NCBI GenBank assembly: GCA_017795085.1
Contig: CP051246.1
Span: forward strand, 3,102,514 to 3,166,513
Direction of reading: 5' to 3'
Length of the DNA stretch: 64,000 bases
DNA from: Salegentibacter sp.
GTDB taxonomy: Bacteria > Bacteroidota > Bacteroidia > Flavobacteriales > Flavobacteriaceae
This document shows positions 1-12,204 of this stretch, one piece after another. The translations under genes were made by a program, and so were the position numbers. The notes below the pieces were generated by a model that worked only from the letters and a program-made list of their open reading frames with translations, ran no database searches and had not been told where the DNA came from. Position 1 is the first letter of the stretch, and the number at the start of each line of letters is the position of its first letter.

Positions 1-4
1 TGAT

Positions 5-44
5 CTTAGTTATCCAAACAAAAATAAAATCCAAACCTTTAAGT
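5..44. repeat. Left terminal inverted repeat of the RIT element
   Basis: These 40 bp are the exact reverse complement of 3407-3446. Beyond them the match continues imperfectly to about base 59. A further copy of the core AAAGGTTTGGATA lies just inside at about 77-89, so the end has subterminal repeats as expected for recombinase binding. Confidence 0.9.
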
Positions 45-93
45 ATAATCACCTGATTTAAAGGCTATACAATTAATAAAGGTTTGGATAAAT

Positions 94-1143
94 TCACTTC
101 TTTTGTATTTCATTTACTCCACAAAATGAGGAGAGCTTACTTAAATTAGACTTCCATTTCTTTGATATCTCTTTTTTGCCTTCATCTTCTAAAGTTGCCA
201 GAGCTTTGGCTTCTTGCTCGGTGGTAATGTCCAAATACGCCATCGTTGTTTGAATATTAGCGTGCCCGAGTAAGAAAGAAATTTGTACGATATTCATGCC
301 ATCTTCCAACCAATGTGACGCTTTTGCATGACGAATCTGATGAGCATGTAATTTAAGCGGTACTTCATCACAAATAGCATGGGCACATAGGGCGTACTTT
401 TTTAATTGCTTGTCTACAGCTACTTGGCTCATCTTGCCTTTGACACCTGTATTTCTGGAATAAAACAAGTACGAATCAGGATATTTCACAGCGTGAAATT
501 CATCCAGGTATTTCTTTAAATGTTCGACCGCTCTTGGTAAAAGATAAAGGGTCCGGATTTTATTTCCTTTTCCAATAACTGTTACATAAGGCTTAATGGT
601 CTCCAAATGCAAATATTTAAGTTTTATTGATAATATTTCGTCTATTCTTACCGCTGTGTTGTAGAGCACAATAAGGAATACCAGGTCCCTTCGGCCCGTC
701 TTTGTAGAAATATCTGGAACGCTCATTAAGGCTTGAACCGCTTTCTTGCTCATGCCATTTACTTTTTTTCTAATCGTCTTTTGGCGAAGGATTTGAGCAG
801 CCTCTAATGATAAATGCAAGAAGGAGATCTCCTTACTACCGAGGTATTTCAAGAATGCTCTTAATGATGCCAACCGATTATTACAGGTTTCAGGGCTGTT
901 ATCTCTGTGGTTTTTCAACCATAAAATCCACTGTTCTATGTAATCCCGAGCGAAGTATTTAGAGCAGAAGTCTGAAGGCTTCACTTTCTTCTCTACTTCC
1001 AAGAAATTAATGAATAAAGATAGTGTCTGGGAATAGGATTTTATCGTATGTGAACTATTTGATTTAAAGGTTAGCGTATACTCCTTTAGCCAGCTGTGGA
1101 TGTAATAGGCAATCACATGAGCCTCTTGGTTTGATTTTTTCAT
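94..1143 (-). CDS. Tyrosine recombinase, third gene of the RIT trio
   Basis: This 349-residue integrase/recombinase of the phage-integrase family has an N-terminal SAM-like core-binding domain (about residues 10-105) and a catalytic domain (about 135-320). Visible catalytic residues are R166 (TAVRIDE), H268 and R271 of the HxxR box (HAHQIRHAK), H294 (LLGHANI) and the nucleophile Y303 (MAYLD). It acts in the cytoplasm to cut and rejoin DNA at the element ends. Its start overlaps the stop of the preceding recombinase by 4 bp (ATGA), suggesting translational coupling. It resembles the recombinase at 3680-4693, so the interrupted neighbour belongs to a related multi-recombinase system. Confidence 0.9.
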   Translation of the reverse strand: MKKSNQEAHVIAYYIHSWLKEYTLTFKSNSSHTIKSYSQTLSLFINFLEVEKKVKPSDFCSKYFARDYIEQWILWLKNHRDNSPETCNNRLASLRAFLKYLGSKEISFLHLSLEAAQILRQKTIRKKVNGMSKKAVQALMSVPDISTKTGRRDLVFLIVLYNTAVRIDEILSIKLKYLHLETIKPYVTVIGKGNKIRTLYLLPRAVEHLKKYLDEFHAVKYPDSYLFYSRNTGVKGKMSQVAVDKQLKKYALCAHAICDEVPLKLHAHQIRHAKASHWLEDGMNIVQISFLLGHANIQTTMAYLDITTEQEAKALATLEDEGKKEISKKWKSNLSKLSSFCGVNEIQKK

Positions 1144-2090
1144 TTTGAATCTGGAATTATGTTGTTAAAGGAGTCATTGGTTTTGTCTTGTATCACATCA
1201 GAAAGCCCCGGGGTCAGTGAATAGTAATATTTAGTGCTCTCTAAAACGCTATGTCCCATGCTTTTGCTCAAGTACAGGAATTTTGAATGAAACTCCATAC
1301 CTTCTCCTATCCAACGATTAATATTTTCTGTTGCATAGTGATGCCGAAGCTGATATGCTGTGGCGTAAGCGGTATTTTTTTTGTCCCATAATTCTCTGAA
1401 ATTCACCTGAACCCAGCTACGTTTATGGCATTTATTTTTACGGGCTGAAAAAAAATAAATGCGGTTGGTGTAGATTTGGCTGATAGCTTTGTCGAACGCT
1501 CTCATAAGTTCGAGCATGCTATCATGGAGAACTACAAAGTGCTGGTCATAACCTTTAGAATACCGAATATTTAGTACACCATCCTTAAGATCCACATCTT
1601 CTACTTTTAGCAACCTGGCTTCAGTGGTTCTAATTCCGCTGCTATATAATAAACGGAAGAATACCGGAATGGTGACTTTTCTAGCCCGCTGCTCCTCAGT
1701 CCGGGTTCCGGTAATAGTATCACAGGCCTTGAAGAATTCTAATAGTTCTTTGTTTGTGAAAGCATGAGGAATATAGGTTCTTGGCGTTCTATATGGTAGT
1801 TCTGGCACCACAATATCTATTTTATCTCGACTCTTAAGATACTTGAGAAAACTGATGACGGGATAAATACGTGACCTGCAAGAGTTGTTTTTTTCCGTGT
1901 CACGTTTGCTGCACCATGTATCAACCATTTCTTGAGAGAGGACTTGAGCATGTGGGTACGTTTTCAAACAATACCTGTCAAAGATAAGTAGGGTCGCCCC
2001 GTAAGACGATTCATTCCAATAATCGGATGCTCTTCGATAAAAAATATATTCTTCGATAAGTGGACCTGCTGGGGATTGATATTTACTCAT
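1140..2090 (-). CDS. Tyrosine recombinase, second gene of the RIT trio
   Basis: This 316-residue tyrosine recombinase carries catalytic R154 (SSGIRTTEA), R249 in a box where the usual His is Tyr (AYQLRHH), H280 (SMGHSVL) and the tyrosine cluster near 288-290 (TKYYYS). The His-to-Tyr change in the first position of HxxR is tolerated in some family members. It overlaps the gene on each side by 4 bp, forming one operon of three recombinases read leftward. Division of labour within the trio cannot be told from sequence. Confidence 0.88.
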   Translation of the reverse strand: MSKYQSPAGPLIEEYIFYRRASDYWNESSYGATLLIFDRYCLKTYPHAQVLSQEMVDTWCSKRDTEKNNSCRSRIYPVISFLKYLKSRDKIDIVVPELPYRTPRTYIPHAFTNKELLEFFKACDTITGTRTEEQRARKVTIPVFFRLLYSSGIRTTEARLLKVEDVDLKDGVLNIRYSKGYDQHFVVLHDSMLELMRAFDKAISQIYTNRIYFFSARKNKCHKRSWVQVNFRELWDKKNTAYATAYQLRHHYATENINRWIGEGMEFHSKFLYLSKSMGHSVLESTKYYYSLTPGLSDVIQDKTNDSFNNIIPDSK

Positions 2091-3349
2091 AACAACACCT
2101 CCTTCTGAATTGGAAAATTCTCAATACTTAGTGAACATTCTTTCAAATGTAAAAAATCGGCACTCAGATATGGATGTAGAGAAGCGGGTGATTGGTGCCC
2201 CATGGTCTGACTGATAACTGGCTGTGAAATCCCATTTTCTAGCAATGAGATTGCCATATGGTGTCGAAAGAGATGAAAACCTTTTCTGTCTCCGGGATTT
2301 GTTCTAATGTTTCCTGCTTTCATGATTTGCATGGAAATACTATACAGGCTTCCACTCTGTAGTTTTATAAATGGATGAACTTGGGTTAGAAAAACATTCT
2401 GACATTTCGTCTCTGGCCTTTCGTTTATAAGATATTCATAGATTGCATTACCAACTATTGCCCTGAGCGGTAAAGTGAGAGGAACTTCTGTTTTCTGTTG
2501 CCTTATATGAATAAGGTCGCTATTCCAATCAATATCGGATAGTACTAACCCTGCAATATCACAGGAGCGTAAACCAGTATAAAAAGCAAGTAAACCGATA
2601 GCTTTATCACGCAAACTAAGGGATGAATTCATGCCGGTTAATACCGTCTTGATTTTAGAAGTTTCTTCTTTGGTAAGGTATTGTATGTTTTTTCTTCTTT
2701 CACGAAGGGCCGGTAGGTAAGACAAAACTGTAGCACAAATATTGTTTGGGAAATAAGGGATACAGGCTTTGATCACGGCTGCAATATTCTTTTTATAGGA
2801 ACAGCCTCTGCGTAGCTTACCATTTTGATAGAAGGTGTCCAACACCGCTTTTTCCGTGATAGCTATCAGTGAAAAAATATTATCCTCCTGCAATGACAAT
2901 AGAAAGCTTGTCGCATTATGTGATTCAGTATAAATAGTATCTTCCTTTTTACCTTTCTTTCTTTCCACACTACAATAGGTCGTGATCACAGCTTTAAATT
3001 CCTCAGACAAAAGATCATAAGCCGTTTTCTTGAATATTGGGCTTTTATACGATCTATCAGGATAGATATTTTCTAAGTCAAACCTTGCAATAGCACCAAT
3101 AATTCCTCGTTTTTCTTGAAGAACAGAAATAGACTTGGTTCTTTTTGTATGAAATAGGTAGACATCGGTGTAGGAGTTCCACTTTTCAGATTTTGCTTTG
3201 GAAAGAATACATTTTATCTCCCTTTTAAAACATCCAATATAATTTCGAGAGTATTGGTTTTCTTCTAGAAATGTAATGAGTAGGGGATACTTTTCCCGTA
3301 AATTTTGTACATCCATAATTGTTTTTACTTCTTTTAGTGAAGCATACAA
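2087..3349 (-). CDS. Tyrosine recombinase, first gene of the RIT trio
   Basis: This 420-residue recombinase is the promoter-proximal and largest member of the trio. The catalytic domain shows YTGLRSCDIAG (first Arg), HLFRHHMA (HxxR), MGHQSPAS (second His) and HPYLS (nucleophile Tyr). The N-terminal half (about 1-215) is a longer core-binding region than in its two partners. The start lies 58 bp inside the right terminal repeat, so the promoter must sit at the element end. Confidence 0.88.
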   Translation of the reverse strand: MYASLKEVKTIMDVQNLREKYPLLITFLEENQYSRNYIGCFKREIKCILSKAKSEKWNSYTDVYLFHTKRTKSISVLQEKRGIIGAIARFDLENIYPDRSYKSPIFKKTAYDLLSEEFKAVITTYCSVERKKGKKEDTIYTESHNATSFLLSLQEDNIFSLIAITEKAVLDTFYQNGKLRRGCSYKKNIAAVIKACIPYFPNNICATVLSYLPALRERRKNIQYLTKEETSKIKTVLTGMNSSLSLRDKAIGLLAFYTGLRSCDIAGLVLSDIDWNSDLIHIRQQKTEVPLTLPLRAIVGNAIYEYLINERPETKCQNVFLTQVHPFIKLQSGSLYSISMQIMKAGNIRTNPGDRKGFHLFRHHMAISLLENGISQPVISQTMGHQSPASLHPYLSADFLHLKECSLSIENFPIQKEVLL

Positions 3350-3406
3350 TTTAGATTAAAAATCCACACCTATATTTATTTTGTTGGCTAAAAATCAAGT
3401 AATTAC

Positions 3407-3446
3407 ACTTAAAGGTTTGGATTTTATTTTTGTTTGGATAACTAAG
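3407..3446. repeat. Right terminal inverted repeat of the RIT element
   Basis: This is the exact reverse complement of 5-44. It borders directly on the palindrome at 3447-3468, which repeats the TCCAAAC/GTTTGGA core of the terminal repeat. Confidence 0.9.
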
Positions 3447-3468
3447 AAAATCCAAACGTTTGGATTTT
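3447..3468. repeat. Perfect 22-bp palindrome at the outer right end of the RIT element
   Basis: The 22 bases centred on AACGTT read identically on both strands. Each half repeats the AATCCAAAC core of the terminal repeat. It has no counterpart at the left end, where the recombinase gene flank begins almost at once. It may be an extra recombinase binding site or the product of joined ends. Confidence 0.75.
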
Positions 3469-3474
3469 ACCTGA

Positions 3475-3693
3475 CATACATTTGCAGTCAGGTCTCTGGG
3501 AAAGATGGCAGATACAGGAATGGATCTATACGTATCACTGCCTATACTGTCCAATTATCTTGGTCATCAGTCCATTGAGTCAACCAATCACTACGTAAGA
3601 CTTACAGCTTCTATATTCCCAGACCTTATCAATGATATGGACAGAAGCTGTATTGATGTCTTCCCAAAATTCAGCTGCTATGAAACCGACTGA
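3475..3693 (+). pseudogene. 3' remnant of a tyrosine recombinase split by the RIT element
   Basis: The frame reads H-T-F-A-V-R-S-L-G-K-M from 3475 and continues through YLGHQSIESTNHYVRL, the C-terminal His and Tyr motifs of a tyrosine recombinase, to a stop at 3693. The codon before 3475 is TGA created at the junction; the original Arg of HxxR is restored by joining bases 2-8. The N-terminal part must lie upstream of the window. The next recombinase gene starts 14 bp before this stop, so the two were an operon. Confidence 0.85.
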
Positions 3694-4693
3694 TTTTTCT
3701 AGGTATATCTCTGATTTTTTATCAAGGTACCTTACAGATGAAAGAGGTGCTTCCATAAACACCATAAATGCGTACCGGGACACTTTTGTATTGCTGCTCA
3801 ACTTTATGGAGACCCAGCAGCAAATAAAGCTGGAGAAGTTGACCTTGAAAGATATTGACAAGAACACTGTCATTGCGTTCTTGGAGTGGATACAATCTAA
3901 ACGAGGCTGCAGTGTTGCCACGCGTAATTTACGATTGGCTGCCATACATTCCTTCTACAGATACTTACAGTATCAGAATTTAGATGTCATTTACGAGTGT
4001 CAAAAGATACTTGCCATAAAATCCAAAAAGCTTCCAAAAGAAACAATGGTGTATCTTACGGTTGAAGGTATCAAATCGTTATTGAAACAACCGGATACTA
4101 CAACAAAGAGAGGTAGACGGGACTTGGCTTTGTTGTCGTTGATGTATGACACAGGTGCGAGAGTTCAGGAAATTATTGACCTTACGCCATCAATGCTGCA
4201 CCTTGGAAGTCCTTCCTCAATTAAAATTATTGGTAAAGGCGATAAAGCACGATTGGTTCCGATGATTGAAGCACAAACGGTCCACTTGAATAACTACATC
4301 AGGGAATATCAAATGGACCGTCCCGAAAAAATGTTGCACCCTCTTTTTACCAATAGTAGAAAAGAAAAACTGACACGTTCGGGAATCACCTATATCTTGA
4401 GGAAATATGTTATAAACGCAAGGAAAACAGATCCATCTGTAATCCCTAAAAACATGAGTTGCCATTCATTGCGCCACTCAAAAGCGATGCATTTACTGCA
4501 AGCAGGGGTCAATCTTGTATATATCCGTGACATTCTGGGACATGTGTCCATACAGACCACGGAAATCTATGCACGGGCCGACTCTAAACAGAAGCGATTG
4601 GCTCTGGAAAAAGCATATGTGGATGTAAGCCCCAAAGAAGAACCTGATTGGGCAAACAATCAGAATCTAATCGATTGGCTCAAGAAGTTCTAA
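3680..4693 (+). CDS. Tyrosine recombinase/integrase
   Basis: This 337-residue recombinase starts at the ATG overlapping the end of the preceding recombinase remnant by 14 bp; an in-frame ATG at 3632 is less likely. The N-terminal core-binding domain is followed by a catalytic domain with YDTGARVQEI (Arg), HSLRHSKAM (HxxR), LGHVSIQTT (His) and EIYARAD (Tyr). It is similar to the 94-1143 recombinase. Its upstream partner is destroyed, so the element it served is probably immobile. Repeated end sequences follow immediately and then a truncated radC. This recalls the Tn554 family, which uses several tyrosine recombinases and targets radC. Confidence 0.9.
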   Translation: MKPTDFSRYISDFLSRYLTDERGASINTINAYRDTFVLLLNFMETQQQIKLEKLTLKDIDKNTVIAFLEWIQSKRGCSVATRNLRLAAIHSFYRYLQYQNLDVIYECQKILAIKSKKLPKETMVYLTVEGIKSLLKQPDTTTKRGRRDLALLSLMYDTGARVQEIIDLTPSMLHLGSPSSIKIIGKGDKARLVPMIEAQTVHLNNYIREYQMDRPEKMLHPLFTNSRKEKLTRSGITYILRKYVINARKTDPSVIPKNMSCHSLRHSKAMHLLQAGVNLVYIRDILGHVSIQTTEIYARADSKQKRLALEKAYVDVSPKEEPDWANNQNLIDWLKKF

Positions 4694-4697
4694 TAAT

Positions 4698-4782
4698 ATT
4701 ATGTAGAGTAATCTTTGATATAACTCAATAAAAATGTGCTGTTCAATGGATTACTCTACATAATAATTTACTCTACATAATG
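4698..4782. repeat. End repeats of the integrase element
   Basis: The sequence ATTATGTAGAGTAAT (4698-4712) recurs in inverted orientation at 4750-4764 and again at about 4767-4781, where it abuts the truncated radC. These are the likely terminal and subterminal recombinase binding sites of the element whose recombinases end at 4693. Confidence 0.7.
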
Positions 4783-5070
4783 AAGTAAAATAACTGCGGT
4801 TGTCAAGCTCTTTAAAAGTACGGCAAACAGGATGCGGACATCCACTAAAGTACCTGTGATACCTCCGTTTGAAACCTCATAAATTCCTTTTACCTTATTG
4901 GCGTTGTTGAGCAGTATTATTTTAAAAGTTTCGTGCAGTTCAATTGTTTCTTTGTTCCATTGGCTGTAGGCTATATCGGCAGCACTTTGGGAACAGGTTA
5001 CTTTGGGAAGCAAATTTGCCTTTGTGCTTCCGCTGTAACTTATGGCTATTTCATTAACTTTGCTTTTCAT
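4768..5070 (-). pseudogene. radC: RadC-like JAB protein, C-terminally truncated
   Basis: The frame encodes the N-terminal part of a RadC/DUF2466 protein of the type carried on Bacteroidota conjugative elements. It contains conserved TIELHETFKIILLNNANKV and GITGTLVDVRILFAV stretches. It stops after VILLH, exactly where intact proteins continue with the HNHPSG metal-binding JAMM motif. The last codons (Y-V-E-stop) come from the integrase element's end repeat. The insertion therefore removed the metal-binding motif. No function is expected. Confidence 0.85.
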
Positions 5071-5099
5071 TGTTTTTAAATTATTTGTGAATGATGAAT

Positions 5100-5133
5100 A
5101 AGAGGGCGCAACTTTCGACGGGAACGCCCTCTT
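5100..5133. terminator. Hairpin downstream of ssb
   Basis: A 9-bp perfect stem (AAGAGGGCG/CGCCCTCTT) encloses a 16-base loop between the end of ssb and the start of the truncated radC. The T-run is weak on the minus strand, so efficiency is uncertain. Its position suits termination of the ssb transcript. Confidence 0.55.
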
Positions 5134-5145
5134 AAATTTTAAGGA

Positions 5146-5490
5146 TTACTTATCATTTTTATTTCCGAGCAAAAGAATTTCCTTTGCTTCCACTTCGGTT
5201 ACATAGCGTTGGTTACCATCATCGGTGGTATAGGTACGGGTTCTCAATTTTCCCGTAATGGCAATTTCCTTTCCCTTACCTACATAATTTTCGATAATCC
5301 CCGCAGTCTTGCCCCACGCCACAACGGTATGCCAGTCGGTGGACTGTACCTTTTCGCCCTTGTTGTTTTTGTAGTGTTCATTTGTGGCGATTGAAAAACG
5401 GGCTACTTTTTTACCGCTTTCAAGGTTGGTAATTGTTGGTTCTTGCCCAATGTTTCCGATTAACTGTACGTGATTTTTTAAAGTACTCAT
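5146..5490 (-). CDS. ssb: Single-stranded DNA-binding protein, mobile-element type
   Basis: This 114-residue OB-fold protein begins MSTLKNHVQLIGNIGQEP and contains the conserved STDWHTVVAWGKTA and VGKGKEIAITGKL segments. The start was placed at MSTL because that aligns with the family; the longer frame adds an unrelated leader. It lacks the acidic C-terminal tip found in chromosomal SSBs, as is common for short versions on plasmids and conjugative transposons. It binds single-stranded DNA in the cytoplasm. Its neighbour, a radC-like gene, is a common companion on Bacteroidota integrative elements. Confidence 0.93.
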   Translation of the reverse strand: MSTLKNHVQLIGNIGQEPTITNLESGKKVARFSIATNEHYKNNKGEKVQSTDWHTVVAWGKTAGIIENYVGKGKEIAITGKLRTRTYTTDDGNQRYVTEVEAKEILLLGNKNDK

Positions 5491-5500
5491 AATAAAATAT

Positions 5501-5671
5501 TTAAAGATTAATAATGCTATCTGAACCATTCAGACAGTTTTTGTTTCTATTTTTTTGAAGTGATTTACTTATTATATCTTGAGCGTTTTCCTTTTTTGGT
5601 TTTTTTGGTGCCGCTTCCTTTTTGATGTCTTTGTACGATTCCATAAGATTCATTTTGGATTTACTTCCCAT
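5501..5671 (-). CDS. Small lysine-rich hypothetical protein
   Basis: This frame of 56 codons begins MGSKSKMNLMESYKD, continues through a lysine-rich stretch (KKEAAPKKPKKENAQ) and ends 10 bp before ssb, so it could be co-transcribed with it. Reading upstream, the same frame stays open for a few codons giving GITIGYAMGSKSK before a stop, so the real gene may be longer and already broken. A second degraded copy lies just upstream (5735-5875). I do not recognise it. Confidence 0.4.
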   Translation of the reverse strand: MGSKSKMNLMESYKDIKKEAAPKKPKKENAQDIISKSLQKNRNKNCLNGSDSIINL

Positions 5672-5734
5672 AGCGTATCCTATGGTAATTCCTAATTTTT
5701 AATCATAAATTTTACCTATAGTTTTGATTTCTTG

Positions 5735-5875
5735 CCAACGAATTTGAACAGACTTACTTATTATATCCAGAGCATTTTCCTCTTTTTGATTTTTTTTGTG
5801 TCCTTGCTATTTTCTGTATTTGTATTGATTTCATGATTGTTTATTTTGACTTACTTCCTATAGTGCCGCCACATT
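5735..5875 (-). pseudogene. Decayed tandem copy of the small lysine-rich ORF
   Basis: At DNA level the segment parallels 5550-5690: both carry GACTTACTTATTATAT- and GCNTTTTCCT-like stretches and a GSKSK-encoding end. On the minus strand it is interrupted by several stops. It records a tandem duplication of the small gene upstream of ssb. Confidence 0.4.
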
Positions 5876-5879
5876 ACCT

Positions 5880-6025
5880 TTTTTGATGCTTTTATTTTAC
5901 AACATCCGGGATTGGTAAAGCGTATAAAAAGAGCAGGCGAAGCCGGAACGGCTTTATGCCGCTGTCCAAGAACGGATTTTGTTTTTTTGCAGTTTAAAAA
6001 AAGGGATAGTGGGAGCTATGGATAT
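5880..6025. repeat. Non-coding repeat, copy 1
   Basis: This stretch shares an extended mosaic of matches with 7730-7880: TTTTTTGATGCT, GGAATTGATAAG-like, TATAAAA, CGAAGCCGGAACGGCTTTATGC versus CACGACCGGTTATGC, and AAAAAAAGGGA at the end. A 63-codon plus-strand frame across it (5912-6103) is probably not a gene because the second copy does not preserve it. The two copies flank the IS110 element. Confidence 0.5.
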
Positions 6026-6235
6026 AGTAAGGCAAATATGAGCACTGAAGAGGAACAAAGTTCAGAGCAAGGGCACAAAACGCATAAAGGCTTTCTTTGC
6101 TGAAACGGGAATAGGTTACGTTTAAGCAATATTTTTCTTCATCCACTTTTTTACGCTGAAAAATTAGTTTCAACCAGTGGATAAAATTCAGTTTCCTTTA
6201 TTACTGTTATTACCTAGAAAACAGTAAGTATTTTT

Positions 6236-7225
6236 TTAAGAAGCGTATTTCATGATGTTGACATATGGTGTGCCTCTTGCAACTACGGCAAATGCCCTGG
6301 CCACCAATTTGTTCCTGATGATGTTCAGCGTGCTCATCTTGCTCTTTCCGATATCGAGCCTGCGTTCGTAATAGTCTTTCATTTCAGGATTGCACTTTAT
6401 TGCAGATAGCGCACATTGGTGCAAAAGGGTTTTGCCTTCCAAGTTTGCCAATTGGCTAACTCTTGTCCTGCCTCGCACACTGGTTCCTGAACTGTGCGGG
6501 AAAGGAGCTATGCCACAATAAGATGCGAACTTTCTCCACGATTTAAACGCGCTGAATCCCAACGTATAGACAATTAGGAATCTAGCAGTTACACTGCCTA
6601 TTCCTTTGATACCGACCAGAAGTCCGAACATCCGTGCCAGTTCTTCATCTTCTCTTATCAATCTGTCCATCTCCCGTTCGAGGTCATTTATACGCCAACT
6701 AAGCAGGTTGATGATGTCCTCCTGTACCCAGTAGAGCAAAGCTTCGTCGCCCAACACTCTTTTCTGTTCTTTGAGCGTAGCCATATGGCCGGCACGTTGA
6801 ACGACCAGTTTTCTTCGCATTGACATCAGGCGTTTCAGTTTTGATAGTACTGCCTTTGGAACTTGAAGGGGGTCAATCTCCTCTCGTTTCCGATAACCAT
6901 ATAGGGCAATGCGCTTTGCATCGGCCTTGTCATCTTTACCTCTGGTAATTCCTAGAGACCGTTTTATTTCAAGTCCTGATACCACGTGGATATGGCAATC
7001 CTGGTCGTCCAGTTGTTTCAATAATTGTTCTGAATAGAGACCCGTATGCTCGAACACGAACAGTAGCATTTCCTTACCGACAATACTTTTTTTAACTGAC
7101 CAATCCATCATCCTTTCAATTCCTTCCCGATTGTTCTTGAATTTTTTTTGTACCCCATTTTGGTGGGCACAGCAGTCCAATGTCAATTTGCTGACATCGA
7201 TGCCAATAACATCTTTGATTTCCAT
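6236..7225 (-). CDS. IS110-family transposase
   Basis: This 329-residue DEDD recombinase has an N-terminal RuvC-like domain with D10 (VIGIDVSK), E59 (VFEHTGLY), D99 and D102 (GKDDKADAKR). A C-terminal transposase_20 domain follows (GIKGIGSVTARFL, SYCGIAPFPHSSGTS), whose Ser near residue 245-249 is the expected second-site nucleophile. Length matches the family. IS110 enzymes are guided by a bridge RNA made from a non-coding end; here a structured 375-bp non-coding stretch precedes the gene. The protein looks intact. Confidence 0.95.
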   Translation of the reverse strand: MEIKDVIGIDVSKLTLDCCAHQNGVQKKFKNNREGIERMMDWSVKKSIVGKEMLLFVFEHTGLYSEQLLKQLDDQDCHIHVVSGLEIKRSLGITRGKDDKADAKRIALYGYRKREEIDPLQVPKAVLSKLKRLMSMRRKLVVQRAGHMATLKEQKRVLGDEALLYWVQEDIINLLSWRINDLEREMDRLIREDEELARMFGLLVGIKGIGSVTARFLIVYTLGFSAFKSWRKFASYCGIAPFPHSSGTSVRGRTRVSQLANLEGKTLLHQCALSAIKCNPEMKDYYERRLDIGKSKMSTLNIIRNKLVARAFAVVARGTPYVNIMKYAS

Positions 7226-7263
7226 AACTTTATATTGTTTTAATTAGGTTGCTTAAACTAAGA

Positions 7264-7457
7264 CCTTTACGAGCAAGGGCTAAAATCCTATATGGTTCTG
7301 GCAACCTGGTTATAAAGGACGGGGACTGATACGCTATAAAGGTCGTGGACCTAGCCGTCGCCTTTACGAGCAAGGGCTAAAATCCTATATGGTTCTGGCA
7401 ACCTGGTTATAAAGGACGGGGACTGATACGCTATAAAGGTCGTGGACCTAGCCGTCG
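7264..7457. repeat. Perfect 97-bp tandem duplication
   Basis: 7264-7360 and 7361-7457 are identical over 97 bp, beginning CCTTTACGAGCAAGGGC and ending CTAGCCGTCG. A third, diverged partial unit lies at about 7537-7603. The duplication lies wholly inside the presumed bridge-RNA region of the IS110 element. Confidence 0.9.
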
Positions 7458-7610
7458 CGAAAGTTCACCCCGTTCTTTTTCAAATTATTACTTAAAGTTA
7501 ACCATATCTTCATCTATTAAATATTATAGTTTACAAAAAGGATGGGGACAAAAACTCTATAAAGGTCTAATTTCCTAGCCGTCGCGAAGGGTCACCCCAT
7601 CCAATTTTAA
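7264..7610 (-). ncRNA. Candidate IS110 bridge RNA region
   Basis: The non-coding DNA upstream of the IS110 transposase contains repeated pairing segments. One stem pairs about 7316-7324 with CCCCGTTCTT near 7468-7477. A second, related stem pairs GGATGGGG (about 7540-7547) with CCCCATCC (about 7595-7602). Both enclose the conserved blocks CTATAAAGGTC and CCTAGCCGTCGCGAA with different bases between them. Conserved scaffold with variable loops is the expected pattern for bridge RNAs, which in the IS110 group are read from the end upstream of the transposase. Assignment is by position and structure only. Confidence 0.5.
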
Positions 7611-8260
7611 ACTCTTAGAGGGTTATCAACAAAATCCAAGGTTATGAGTCTCCCCCAGACCCCCTCTTTTCAACATCATTATCATAATAGATTTCATCTA
7701 TAGAACAAATCTAAAGGCCCTCGCTGTTACCTTTTTTTGTTGCTGATACATTTTCAATATTTGGAATTGATAAGAACTTATAAAAGGGAGGCACGACCGG
7801 TTATGCAGTCCGTTCAACTTCCAAATATTGGTATTTTGCTTACAAAAAAAGGGAAGAGACAGTGACGGCGCGGAAGTGGGTCTAAAGTCTATATGTGAAG
7901 TACAAAAACATTGGAAGCGGGACCAAAAGCAAGGATGGAAATCCGATTAAGCGGACTCCATTCCCGATTTCGAATTGGAATGAAGTGCGTTTCCCAGCAT
8001 AGCGGGAAGGGCTAACGAAATGGAAAGGAGAAATTGCGGATGGTGTCCAAGACTTTTTATAGTGAAGCTCTTTCCCCGCAATGGGGCTTTTTCTGCGGAA
8101 TGAAGTGGGAATGTGCTGAACGGGTTATGAAATTGGAAATCCAATAATTACCACTATTGCAATAAAGTGGCAAACATTTGAATTTATAATGTAGATGGAT
8201 TATTAAATATAAAATCACCAATCCAGCGCTCTTATTCTTCCTTCTAATTTGGTAAGAGTG
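7611..8260. other. Non-coding element remnant with repeat copy 2
   Basis: No convincing gene is seen. 7730-7880 is a diverged copy of 5880-6025. Around 7990-8110 there are GGAAAGGAG- and CCCCGCAATGGGG-type inverted segments typical of intergenic DNA on Bacteroidota integrative elements. The 65-codon minus frame at 7947-8144 has no start context or recognisable domain. Confidence 0.5.
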
Positions 8261-9019
8261 TTACGATGGCATCCCACGAGAGGGATTCCCTGTAAACATA
8301 CTTTCTTTCATAACATTATAATCAGTTGCATAATTTTTGATGACTATATCAGGCGGTATTATCTTAATTGAGCTTGGTATATGATTGGTATAATCTATTC
8401 CTTTTAATGGTGAAAAAGATCTTCGATGTTCAGCTATATGGTAAAACAATTCTTTATCCTTTAATGCTTTTTTTGCGTGGTCAGTATCCATTAACCTTTC
8501 CAAATCATGTAGATGTCGGCTTAGTCTATCAACTCTTATATTATCCTTTTGCCACTCCTCATGCAACAGGAATATTTTTTCCAAAAATGTTCGTTGTGGT
8601 TCAACAGTTCTTACTGCAAAGGTTGGATTGGTAAAGATAGCCGATTCAAATTCTCTCTCTACAATAGATTGAATGGACACATCTTCGCAAGGTTCCCTAT
8701 GCGATCTGCAACTGATTTCTTAAAGTATTCTGGGTTTCAGATATTCGCTCTGTTTTGTCAATGGGTCATAGATAACATAAATCCGTAACGGGTCAGTATC
8801 GGAATCTTCAAAAGGTTCGACGCCTATTGAGGAAATAGGTAATTTTTGTTTCTTTATTGCTTCGGCTATATCCCCAAGTAATTGTGTACTAATGAATTTG
8901 GCATTTTTCTTCCGAAGTTTCTTTATTTGTGTCCTGGACAGTTTACCTTCCATATCAAAATAGGCACGATCAATGGCCATTTCAAAGGATGGTGTATGCT
9001 GTGGATTTAAGTACAGCAT
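8261..9019 (-). pseudogene. AbiEii/AbiGii-type nucleotidyltransferase toxin, truncated and nonsense-mutated
   Basis: Two stretches in the same minus frame, 9019-8723 and 8719-8261, are separated by a single TAA at 8720-8722. The first contains AIDRAYF, KLSRTQIKKLRKK and SDTDPLRIYVIYD. The second contains PQRTFLEKIFLLHEEWQK, HLHDLERLMDTD and AEHRRSF. Both are characteristic of the AbiEii nucleotidyltransferase family. The N-terminal GGTSLSK catalytic region is missing, replaced at 9020 by a different gene family. No AbiEi-type antitoxin is adjacent. It is a dead fragment of a toxin-antitoxin/abortive-infection system. Confidence 0.8.
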
Positions 9020-9020
9020 C

Positions 9021-9633
9021 CTACAACGTCACTATTACCATTTCAATAAATCAGGAAAAGCATGGATAATGTATTTTAATAATTGGAGTGGTTTTATTTT
9101 TGATCAAAAAGACCCATACCAGTTATATGAGAAGGGCAAAAGAGCAGTTTATACTGAACAAACCGAGGGGCTAAGACTAGGTTCCAGAAGCTTGCAAGAA
9201 CAAACTGATAGTATTCTTCGGGAAAACAGAAAAAAGAAAGAAAAAAAAGCTTGAAATAGAAAAGGCCCAGGACAAAATACTTCTTAAAACCTACGATTCA
9301 ATAAAATAATTGGTAAATTTGAGAACAAGTCGGTAAAAACATTCCCACCCGCCAAGCGAGAGGAGATATTAATTGCAATGGCCAGAAAGTTGATCTTAAA
9401 AAGGGGACCTTCATCCTATCATGGTTTTATGAGGCCCCTGAAATTGAGTACCTTAAACTGAATGAGATTAATTTACCTGCGATGGCAAGTAAGAATTTCG
9501 GAAAAATGGCATATGCCGTAAACTTTTACCAGGGTTTGATTAAAGAAGAGATAGATTATATCATTTATATATTGGAAGATACTGGCCAAAAGTACTTATT
9601 AAATAAGAATGATTGGATGAAATTGCGACAATA
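9021..9633 (+). pseudogene. Partner-family secreted protein, 5'-truncated and frameshifted
   Basis: Pieces in different frames match the C-terminal two thirds of the intact proteins at 49626-50600 and 52408-53382: NKSGKAWIMYFNNW, DSILRENRKKK, then at DNA level the segments encoding FGKMAY, IDYIIYILEDTGQKYLL and NDWMKLRQ before the TAA at 9631-9633. The 5' end is cut by the AbiEii remnant. At least two frameshifts are present. Confidence 0.8.
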
Positions 9634-9749
9634 AGTATTTTCTGTTCTTTGTAAAAACCCAAGTTAGTTAATCCTATCCTGAACAAGACGGGATTCTATT
9701 TTAATTGCTAAATGAAACGAGAATGATGACCGCGTAAAAGGAACCTGCT

Positions 9750-10064
9750 TTGACCATAGAACAAAAGATGTCCCAAACCGAATATCGTGCAATAATAAAT
9801 AAATATAAAGGTCGGGACTTGGCTAGGCTTCCAAGGGCTACCCGCGATTCTTTTATCATAGCTACCGCCAAAGATGCCCGATTCCCAAATAGTTTAAAGA
9901 ATGCAATGTCTGACATAGAAAAAACTCCTGAAGGATCGTTTCTTTTTAATAAGCGGTTTTATGCCGAACCGGTTTATACCGTCACTTTTTATAAAGACAA
10001 GGAAAAAAATCTTCTCGGCTGGACCGTATATGTCTCTGAAAAAGTGGATGAAGTGCTTAATTGA
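9750..10064 (+). pseudogene. Single-domain partner-family protein lacking its signal peptide
   Basis: The open frame of 104 codons matches the mature part of the intact 57449-57868 protein (INKYKG, ATRDSFIIATAKDARFPNSL, EPVYTVTFYKDKEK, GWTVYV). It has only a TTG as possible start and no signal sequence. The relic at 14703 begins at the same point with nearly the same upstream bases (GAACCTGC-TTGA), so both derive from one already truncated ancestor. Translation in the cytoplasm cannot be excluded. Confidence 0.65.
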
Positions 10065-10173
10065 GGTTTATGAGGGCCATGAAAAAGTTCACTAAGAGCC
10101 TGTTATAATCAATTTTATTTATTGTAAATTCAAAAATATATTGTCGATAAATAAATATTCTGTTTAAATTTTA

Positions 10174-11132
10174 TAGAGGTCAGTAGTTAATTACCTATAA
10201 TTTGGGATTGATAGGTGACATTGCCTTGAACCATTTTTGTGATCAGGTTATTGAATATTGTAGCTTTGCTCTGAGATCGGTTGATCCTAAAACAAAATTC
10301 GCTAAAATACCTGTTCAGGTTTTTATCGCTTACCCAAGAATAAGTGGTCCTTATCCAAGATTTTACTTGGTGTATCATTGTATGGATCGCCTTAAAATTC
10401 AATCCTTTATTGCTTTCTATTTGTGTAATGTCGTATGCTTTGCCAATTGGTCTATAACCCCGCCATTTATCAGTGGTCACCTTAGCTTCACGGCTTATAT
10501 GATTGATAAAAATGTACTGAAGGGACTGGGCTGAAAAATCATCGATTTTCATAGTGTACATCCGCTTTACCTTGCCTTCTTCAGTCAATTGAACTGCCGT
10601 GACTGCTTTTTTTTTCTTACCATCATAACTTCTTCCTATTTTTCCCTCGTCTTTCCCGCCCAGAACAAATTCATCCACGTGAACATCACCATCCATGGGA
10701 TTGTTCCCACTCGAAGCCATAGCCTCCCTGACCTTCATCATAAATAGCCTCGCCGTTTTTTCTGTGACCCCATAACGCACGGACATATAACTTGCCGATA
10801 AACTTTTGGTTGTCGTGGCCATCTCAAAACAAATGAAAAATGCTTTGCGCACACCAAATTTCACTTTGTGAAAAAGCGTATTGGCAGTAGCAGATTCGAT
10901 ATGGTGGCAAATATTGCATTGTCTGGCAAAATCCTTGCGCACTTGACAAGCATAGTGGTTACATCTTGTACATTTAAAACTGGTTTTGGACTTGATTGAA
11001 GCAAGGTATTGCTTACAATCCTGGTCGGTTTTGAACCGATCAGAGAACTCCAGAAGATTTTGACCCTTAAAAATATCCATTATTTTAAATATTTACTGGC
11101 AATAAAGATACGTATTTAAATACTGACCTCTA
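10174..11132. mobile_element. IS1595-family insertion sequence
   Basis: The transposase gene is enclosed by short inverted repeats reading TAGAGGTCAGTA at the left (from 10174) and its complement TACTGACCTCTA at the right (to about 11132). The element separates partner-family relics on the left from a lipoprotein relic on the right. Related but unequal fragments occur at 15748, 42400 and 47687. Confidence 0.8.
10187..11080 (-). CDS. IS1595-family transposase
   Basis: This 297-residue protein has an N-terminal zinc ribbon (two CxxC pairs: FKCTRCNHYAC and QCNICHHIES). An ISXO2-like DDE domain follows with VDEFVLGGK (first Asp), VTTDKWRGY (second Asp) and a C-terminal HxxKSWIRT...LNRYFSEFCFRINR segment. 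Length and motif order match the family. It appears intact and could be active. Confidence 0.93.
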   Translation of the reverse strand: MDIFKGQNLLEFSDRFKTDQDCKQYLASIKSKTSFKCTRCNHYACQVRKDFARQCNICHHIESATANTLFHKVKFGVRKAFFICFEMATTTKSLSASYMSVRYGVTEKTARLFMMKVREAMASSGNNPMDGDVHVDEFVLGGKDEGKIGRSYDGKKKKAVTAVQLTEEGKVKRMYTMKIDDFSAQSLQYIFINHISREAKVTTDKWRGYRPIGKAYDITQIESNKGLNFKAIHTMIHQVKSWIRTTYSWVSDKNLNRYFSEFCFRINRSQSKATIFNNLITKMVQGNVTYQSQIIGN

Positions 11133-11161
11133 ATTCAAAATTTTATAAGGTTTATTGATTT

Positions 11162-11190
11162 CCTCCTCTTAATTTACTGATATCCCCCTC
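11162..11190 (+). promoter_or_regulatory. Double C-tract motif upstream of a lipoprotein relic
   Basis: CCTCCTCTTAATTTACTGA followed by TATCCCCCTC lies about 52-80 bp before the ATG at 11242. It resembles the C-tract/AT-spacer/C-tract motif at 48537, 51337, 54502 and 56394. It may be a promoter or regulator site shared by the family. Confidence 0.4.
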
Positions 11191-11241
11191 CCGCCCAAAG
11201 CCACTTATTGGTAAATTGTGGTAAATTTTAAACCCAACCTT

Positions 11242-12204
11242 ATGAGAAAGCACTACTATTTATTCTTTTTAACCTTTCTGCTCCTGGTATATTCCTGTGA
11301 ACAGGAAGTTTTAGAACCCGATCTTCAAAAATAAGGTAAGGACATTATAGATAAGGAGGAAAAGGTTAATGCCACTAAATCCCCGGACAATCCTTATTAC
11401 CAAGCTACTTTGTCCATTACATCTAATTACCCTCTAATTGTTGGAGGGTCTATGGACATAGACCTTGAATTGGAGATGAAATATATTTACGAAGGAAACC
11501 CTTATGATTATGAGCGGGTTGAGTATGAAGTGGTAAGGCATGGGGAACAATTTGGTATGAATATGGGATACTTGGATTGCAATGATATCTGGTGCAGTAA
11601 TGTGCTCGCTGCACAAGCCGGGGAATGGGATATAAGGGCTTATATACGCTATAACCACCCCACGTATGGGTACCAATTTGTTTATTCCAACGTGGTAACG
11701 CTAGAAATCTTTTATCCCGAGGTTGATAATATAAAAGTTGATCCTACTATTGTAAGTGAGATGGAAGATGCCTGGAATGCTGCGGTAAATGCCTCGGGCC
11801 CGGGGAATTTAGAAGAAAGGGGGTTTAGTATTTATGGAAATACCACCTCTGGCAGCCTGGTTTATGAGGTAAAGTATGGCAATCCTTCTCCGGGTGGCTC
11901 TAGTGAGGAAACTGAGATTATTATAAATTACACAGGTGAATCTAAAGTTTACCCCAGGAATGGAGTAAAATTTTCGGTGGCGTGGTTCCATACCCATCCC
12001 CCTCATAGATGGTGTACCGGATGCAGGCGAACCGGTATACCTTCCCCAGAAGATAATACAATTAGTACCAATAAGAAAATACCGGGCATTTTAATGGACT
12101 ATAAAGAATTTAGCTTATGTTATGACCATGATCTGGATCTTAACACAGGCCTTAAAACATTTGGACCGGGTAGAAGGATTTATGATGAAAACATTCTTAA
12201 TTAA
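11242..12204 (+). pseudogene. JAMM-like variable lipoprotein, nonsense-mutated
   Basis: The frame opens MRKHYYLFFLTFLLLVYSC (lipoprotein signal), hits TAA at 11332-11334, then remains open to 12204. After the signal come an Ig-like region (YQATLSITSNYPL to about YSNVVTLEIFYP) and a C-terminal region with WFHTHPPHRWCTGCRR and IPSPEDN. HTHP plus PSxxD is the arrangement of JAMM/JAB metallopeptidase-like sites, here with a CxxC insert. The end GPGRRIYDEN resembles the GPSRR/GPNRR ends of the other copies. This is the most divergent copy in the window and preserves HTHP best. Confidence 0.75.

Follow-up and report, generated by a model that had tools for sequence, protein, structure and literature searches.

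RIT elements are described as overlapping trios of recombinase genes, about 3.5 kb long, with inverted repeats, a palindrome beside the trio and identical copies (Van Houdt et al. 2012, PMC3414803; Janssen et al. 2010, on the C. metallidurans genome, PMC2864759). RITs have already been noted to lie in radC and in transposase genes of IS66 or Tn6049, the codon not being given in the excerpts of these papers used here (PMC2864759, PMC3414803). The need for three recombinases has been called hard to understand (excerpt of PMC3414803), and a 2023 table in the part of PMC10214605 used here enters RIT target specificity and the empty site as not tested. Here we describe RIT1, which opens a 64,000-nucleotide stretch (the window) of Salegentibacter sp. 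(assembly GCA_017795085.1, contig CP051246.1). RIT1 is a RIT element, as its overlapping recombinase trio, length near 3.5 kb, inverted-repeat ends, neighbouring palindrome and identical copies show. It sits inside the catalytic HxxR codon of a recombinase gene that belongs to another RIT.

RIT1 interrupts the HxxR codon of a second RIT

The features at the left edge of the window are as follows.

1-3, plus strand: T1, final bases of the host ritB 5' half (..CATGA), with the remainder left of the window (locus L009, 7252-8005)
4-9, plus strand: s1, TCTTAG, the 6-bp core retained from the present target (junction reading)
10-3441, no strand: RIT1 proper, TTATCC..GGATAA, with inverted-repeat ends TTATCCAAAC..GTTTGGATAA (end alignment, copy comparison)
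94-1143, minus strand: tyrosine recombinase in the ritC position, 349 aa (list of open reading frames (ORFs), Pfam/NCBIfam)
1140-2090, minus strand: tyrosine recombinase in the ritB position, 316 aa (4-bp overlap with each neighbour)
2087-3349, minus strand: tyrosine recombinase in the ritA position, 420 aa (ORF list, Pfam)
3442-3447, plus strand: s2, CTAAGA (other strand TCTTAG), 6 bp separating element from palindrome, interpreted as left over from the previous target
3448-3467, no strand: palindrome X, 20 bp, perfect, AAATCCAAACGTTTGGATTT; two inverted half-sites resembling the element end arm ATCCAAAC
3468-3473, plus strand: s3, TACCTG, 6 bp separating palindrome X from T2, interpreted as left over from an older target; misfits the HxxR codon pattern
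3474-3693, plus strand: T2, host ritB 3' half (RHTFAVRSL..) with the 3' target arm ACATACAT (frame reading, Rit profile score)

The window covers positions 3,102,514-3,166,513 of a single-contig genome of 4.73 Mb, so the sequence to its left can be read. There, in L009, a frame open for 264 codons ends in ..GPRIHDL and matches Phage_integrase (PF00589) over positions 4-124 of the 172-position profile. This half scores 132.5 bits with the RitB profile, against 30.9 with RitA and 34.7 with RitC, and the C-terminal half on the far side of RIT1 also scores best with RitB (49.8 bits). The core s1 spans the third base of an Asp codon, a Leu codon and the first two bases of the Arg codon. Joining T1, s1 and T2 (window 4-9 to 3474 onward) gives the empty site, which reads H-D-L-R-H-T-F-A-V with nothing gained or lost. 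This confirms that RIT1 entered ritB of a second RIT directly behind the first base of the Arg codon of HxxR. The initial annotation, made from the letters of the window, had proposed exactly such an insertion in another tyrosine recombinase and a seamless D-L-R-H-T-F-A-V, and had suggested looking for the N-terminal half in the upstream sequence. All three points are borne out; the cut that it drew lies one base off the symmetrical one and leaves the same empty site.

RIT1 is 3432 bp long, and its 86-nt inverted repeat is 86% complementary. The genes overlap by 4 bp at 1140-1143 and at 2087-2090, and PF00589 is above cut-off in all three proteins, for which Pfam gives recombinase domains only. 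Gene order and lengths fit putative membership in the published RitA, RitB and RitC families, and the homologues form trios. The ORF list holds no other long frame in RIT1, and no gene set with a Tfp, Srap or TnpC-like protein was found there. A 30-bp stretch that includes palindrome X separates the element from the host ritB 3' half. An Rfam search of window positions 1-12000 gave no match.

The host and the copies in this genome

The split ritB is flanked by genes for a 424-aa recombinase upstream and a 353-aa recombinase downstream. The host is therefore itself a trio, and the locus is a RIT inside a RIT. Its remaining features in the window are these.

3632-4693, plus strand: host ritC, 353 aa, intact (ORF list, Pfam)
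4694-4780, no strand: right end of the host RIT, terminus ..TACTCTACATAA; palindrome X is absent at this copy (end comparison)
4787-5070, minus strand: radC 5' half, cut at the HNHPSG motif by the host RIT (RadC profile)

The palindrome of the host RIT is TTATGCAAAGCTTTGCATAA, and its plan is similar to that of RIT1. Six radC 5' halves end at position 71 of the RadC profile, three 3' halves begin at positions 64-66, and one radC is intact. The left end of the host RIT in the window region likewise adjoins a radC 5' half, making this a hybrid copy (window 4780-5070 with L009 5740-5850). Genes resembling ssb (by eye) and truncated radC genes lie on both sides of the host RIT in inverted symmetry (L009 5131-5857, window 4768-5529), and a gene for an IS110-family transposase lies near the nested RITs (window 6236-7225, NCBIfam).

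Five copies of RIT1 occur in the genome, with 0 mismatches over window positions 9-3447. All five adjoin a ritB 5' half of the host type at the identical base, and four also adjoin its 3' half. The fifth (L010, 1.378-1.381 Mb) has on its other side the ritB 5' half of another trio (..GPRVHDI, 137 bits with RitB), broken again inside the Arg codon. Three composites (L011-L013) are identical in RIT1, in a second insertion and in the junctions, so their RIT1 represents one event. That further insertion, about 1.43 kb long and IS110-like by eye (for example at contig positions 4589097-4590524 in L011), interrupts ritB in the other four host copies; the window host ritB is without it, and RIT1 in the window has the opposite orientation to L011-L013. 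All five host-type ritB 5' halves located in the genome run into a break. Three different radC genes contain the carrier RIT with both RIT1 and the second insertion inside ritB, so its spread was not halted by the damage at that time.

Some copies carry two like target halves. L010 and the window host RIT have two 5' halves, and L166 has two 3' halves with X on both sides, as is expected from recombination between oppositely placed copies. The copies together suggest an order of nesting in which RIT1 and the second insertion would first have entered ritB of one host RIT. The composite would then have spread to three radC genes, perhaps in trans via the still-intact window host copy, and RIT1 would later have moved into ritB of that copy as well.

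Relatives share one anatomy

At E 1e-70, RIT1 RitC was searched against 299 genomes from the family, and at E 1e-30 RitB against 395 from the phylum; both searches returned only the window's own genome. Relatives were therefore drawn from plasmids, genome contigs (the best 80 of 89 kept) and viral contigs (16 loci, of which seven resolved; L154 is probably spurious). A search of 35 genomes for multiple copies, mostly draft assemblies, gave no usable additional near-identical copies. Of 85 loci tried, 39 copies were resolved, comprising 38 relatives and the window copy, with L066 and L090 accepted by hand. The best open frame was overridden by hand in favour of one running towards X in L065, L090, L130, L137, L145 and L146. 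The 5' half is absent in L128 and L073, and that of L069 consists of four codons only. Seven loci read by eye or from one half (L117, L120, L083, L112, L116, L123 and L129) stand outside the 39.

End alignment and palindrome search give a common plan for the 39 copies, T1-s1 (6 bp)-element-s2 (6 bp)-20-bp palindrome X-s3 (6 bp)-T2, with the empty site T1-s1-T2. In a Priestia relative, whose RitB is 47% identical, X has the same 20 bases; Rhizobium and Rhodococcus RITs have a similar plan with other palindromes. Another group (L107, L108, L110, L150) has the palindrome TTATCAGTACGTACTGATAA or a near variant, and it possibly sits where a phage gene ends. Either end of X, together with the adjoining six bases and an element end, makes up a core site with inverted arms, so that a circular form would hold two core sites in tandem.

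Targets are often active-site codons

We judged from general knowledge which motifs are catalytic or substrate-contacting, and 28 of the 39 targets lie at such motifs. In thirteen, the window included, the element enters a tyrosine recombinase at the HxxR Arg codon. Two more lie in the catalytic Tyr region and four in the DNN-x-E segment of IS66 TnpC; HExxH peptidase-like, DExH helicase-like and YhcG nuclease genes account for two each, and an HUH transposase, MutS domain I and an IS21 transposase for one each. PD-(D/E)xK is also among these motifs. Within the 28, L066 is a recombinase by record annotation, with no Pfam or Rit-profile match, and L128 was assigned by eye; in L063, L097, L102 and L138 the motif was likewise assigned from general knowledge, the Pfam matches covering neighbouring domains or falling below cut-off. 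Split halves end and resume at adjacent Pfam positions (YhcG_C 61/63 twice, MPTase-PolyVal 51/54, PcfK 67/70, DDE_Tnp_IS66 257/260).

The initial annotation had expected other copies to share the target site. The five genomic copies and the 13 of 39 do so, and the viral scan adds three HxxR insertions, L148, L149 and L160. The last belongs to a RIT whose RitB is only 25% identical, and in a RitC-like gene it enters the HxxR box one codon further on, which suggests an independent arrival at this motif. Of the recombinase targets, 15 were scored: nine resemble RitB, three resemble RitC, two are ambiguous and one is without a match. This agrees with the earlier proposal that the conserved HxxR segment supplies targets in rival elements. 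A stronger form of the proposal is countered by the 11 of 39 targets with no known catalytic motif or an unclear one, and by the Rhizobium group. That group enters a conserved IS66 segment near the C-terminus, which we take to be non-catalytic, so active sites are frequent rather than universal targets. Our verdict is that the targeting rule is wider than HxxR, embracing active-site and other conserved codons, often in genes of mobile elements. The short C-terminal half of the L084 target, taken alone, leans to RitC. In L117 and L120, RitC-like 5' halves end at the RDFLG box, ahead of the conserved His, at the RIT end; X was not found there by script.

Across 14 HxxR sites, CA is conserved at T1 positions 4-5 and at T2 positions 2-3. 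Only T at position 3, A or C at 5 and G at 6 are kept in the core, and these are the bases that the codons demand. For RitB targets the arms read about CAYGA and RCAY. Self-avoidance, in the sense that an element's own genes lack the target word, is weak; the best score of an own ritB gene is 12 of 16 arm matches, and none exceeds the best chance match within its element. In the elements at HxxR, 18 relic spacers are unlike s1, and 16 of them finish in AG or CG, the ending expected from an HxxR site, with L078 and L101 dropped since all their spacers are equal, and with a chance level of 1/8 that assumes even base use.

Spacers shift as the element flips

The spacers {s1,s2,s3} of the host RIT are {CGTCCA,TAGCCA,TTTTCA} at 4.587 Mb, {ATTGCA,CGTCCA,TAGCCA} at 2.72 Mb and {AATGCA,ATTGCA,CGTCCA} at 3.24 Mb. 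X lies to the right of the trio in the first and third copies and to its left in the second. At each step s1 becomes s2, s2 becomes s3 and the element is flipped; the intact radC at 3.728 Mb carries the TAGCCA word. RIT1 shows one such step, from {TCTTAG,TACCTG,TCTTAG} in L011-L013 to {TCTTAG,TCTTAG,TACCTG} in the window, again flipped. A chain in R. leguminosarum (L171 in ATCC 14479, then L163, L165 and L164 in TP16) has the same shift pattern with 0 mismatches in 3390. When spacer and orientation columns are permuted within groups, seven shift-with-flip pairs are observed against 1.67 expected (0 of 5000 shuffles reach seven); the host and Rhizobium groups alone give five against 0.88 (1 of 5000). 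Four steps are unambiguous. Thus s2 and s3 look like relics of earlier targets, and the three spacers may form a first-in-first-out record of three slots, shifting with each flip, in the two RITs here and one in Rhizobium. Parent and daughter copies occur together in one genome, which favours copy-out movement.

RitB may read the target

RitA is reported to have two core-binding domains and RitC an extra C-terminal helix (excerpt of PMC8138268). We compared target classes with protein identities in 21 of the 27 elements that have three complete proteins, near-identical and unresolved ones being dropped and relatedness not fully removed. A shared target class goes with RitB identity when RitC is given (r 0.51, 0 of 2000 shuffles) and with RitA identity when RitC is given (r 0.39, 0 of 2000). 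RitB keeps a signal given RitA (r 0.34, 1 of 2000), and RitC given the others runs in the opposite direction (r -0.23). This suggests, as a lead, that RitB, perhaps with RitA, reads the target.

A broader proposal, to which we give somewhat less than even odds, is that RITs are transposons that divide the work. RitC, conserved across target classes, would act on the element's own half-sites, and RitB and RitA would read the two arms of the target, which would evolve towards active-site codons of other mobile elements' enzymes; X, as a second core site, would keep the three-slot record. Transposition pedigrees could then be read directly from genomes.

Mechanism and alternative explanations

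As a whole, the data are best explained, with a probability of about 0.8, by site-specific insertion at the HxxR-coding site with two core sites and a spacer shift. RIT1 would insert by site-specific tyrosine recombination over a 6-bp core, flanked by two conserved target arms, at DNA encoding HxxR of recombinases, mostly RitB and RitC of other RITs. A circular form would carry the tandem core sites end-s2-X and X-s1-end. For excision, the partners would be attL and the X-side site, so that s1 stays in the circle. Integration would usually use the other core site, flipping the element and moving s1 to s2 and s2 to s3; integration through the same core site would retain orientation and s2. Movement would be copy-out-like. 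This model builds on what the aligned copies show, namely their anatomy, the precise codon entered, empty sites that stay in frame, and the relations among spacers with their coupling to orientation, and the mobility of RIT1 itself is read from its copies and empty sites. The circle, the strand order, the assignment of recombinases to arms (RitB, perhaps with RitA, on the target and RitC on the element's own sites) and any benefit are inferred.

Several points weigh against this model. Circles, empty sites and transposition are postulated from sequence, and 46 of the 85 loci were not resolved, many with the contig ending at the element or the ends not found. The RIT1 s3 TACCTG and the L069 s2 TTCAAA misfit the HxxR codon pattern. 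Eleven of the 39 targets have no motif that we know as catalytic or are unclear: PcfK, TnpV, IS66 TnpB, a DUF3800-like protein with no Pfam match, a protein that we take to be Rpn-like, three possible phage-gene ends and three not resolved. In several conserved cases (L092, L104, L118 and the Rhizobium group) X is located 5' of the target gene instead, and the hybrids L166, L010 and the window host copy require recombination between copies. In the spacer record, a different parent in the same orientation is available for two of the three Rhizobium steps, those leading to L163 and L164; the pairs L163 to L164 and L173 to L163 are also compatible with a step that leaves orientation and s2 unchanged while s1 becomes s3, as the other use of the two core sites would give. 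The step from L078 to L082 is trivial and uninformative because its spacers repeat. RitA given RitB is without signal in the covariation (r 0.05, 618 of 2000 shuffles), in a set from which relatedness is not fully removed.

The strongest competitor, which we consider possible though well short of even odds, is that the recombinases read a mere DNA word such as CAYGA-N6-RCAY from any H-[DE]-x-x-H string, the active site being a by-product of no selective meaning. HDxRH and HExxH do yield the same DNA pattern, the arms are conserved while most core positions vary, and non-catalytic targets exist. However, RIT groups with different arms converge on active sites of unrelated enzymes (DExH, PD-(D/E)xK, HUH, HNHPSG and the catalytic Tyr), and the distant L160 meets the same HxxR box one codon off. 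The initial annotation went further in the other direction and held that the element had disabled a competitor, a claim that the data bear out only in part. The host ritB is indeed broken, as are all five host-type ritB 5' halves found, and 12 of the 15 scored recombinase targets are RitB-like or RitC-like. That RIT1 is a weapon selected to inactivate rival RITs nevertheless seems unlikely to us, since the carrier with its twice-broken ritB reached three different radC genes, riding inside a mobile carrier would bring an equal or better benefit, and many RITs enter non-RIT genes.

Two further explanations would dispense with repeated targeting or with a transposition record. Gene conversion or inversion between copies could have produced the spacer chain, and the hybrids L010, L166 and the window host RIT show that copies recombine; this does not predict a two-slot shift together with a coupled flip, the spacers equal s1 of other copies exactly, and the TAGCCA word is on offer in the intact radC, so that we think this quite improbable. 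Finally, one nested composite could have been duplicated by homologous recombination or segmental duplication, the codon then marking one event copied five times. This describes L011-L013 well, with their shared RIT1, second insertion and identical junctions. It does not account for the window copy, which is without the second insertion and has RIT1 reversed and other s2 and s3, nor for L010, which adjoins the ritB of a different trio at the same codon. Unrelated genomes repeat the codon in divergent recombinases, and the composites sit in different radC genes, each with a 5' and a 3' half of its own. We therefore reject simple duplication of a single composite as extremely improbable. Random insertion was also considered and rejected.

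Comparison with known systems

If the targeting holds, RITs would serve as site-specific tools directed at active-site codons and would show clearly how mobile elements nest in each other. The anatomy supplies exact attachment sites, a two-core-site model, a testable division of labour and a putative time-ordered record of earlier targets. Inteins, group I introns and homing endonucleases also occupy the most conserved, often active-site, codons of widespread genes, where target sites stay available; they use nucleases and splice out or spare the function. In contrast, RITs break the target gene and use recombinases, and Pfam, which gave recombinase domains only, returned no nuclease or self-splicing feature in RIT1.

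GInts, as presented in the excerpt of PMC5385486, likewise have several integrases per operon, recurrent site-specific insertion in one gene family (ssb) and attachment-site sequence variants. They differ in their four genes, large cargo, direct imperfect repeats and insertion mostly at gene ends. Strand-biased circularizing integrative elements (SEs) and Tn554 share with RITs tyrosine recombinases, target specificity and copy-out-like movement (excerpt of PMC10214605). In these elements a 6-bp spacer from the donor's left flank is copied to the new right flank, which is matched here by the spacer chains. However, their gene sets (IntA, Tfp, IntB and Srap; TnpA, TnpB and TnpC) differ from the RIT trio, they have one 6-bp footprint against the three slots of RITs, and a palindromic second core site and a coupled flip are not described in that excerpt (PMC10214605). 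RIT1 thus works like SE/Tn554 and is no member, as its gene set differs.

The excerpts of the RIT papers used here (PMC3414803, PMC2864759) do not describe the codon entered, the 6-bp core, a second core site, relic spacers, a flip-and-shift rule or RIT-in-RIT targeting; other RIT papers may hold target-site details. Compared with these accounts, what appears to be new at this locus is the probable role of X as a second core site, the putative relic spacers s2 and s3 and their flip-linked shift.

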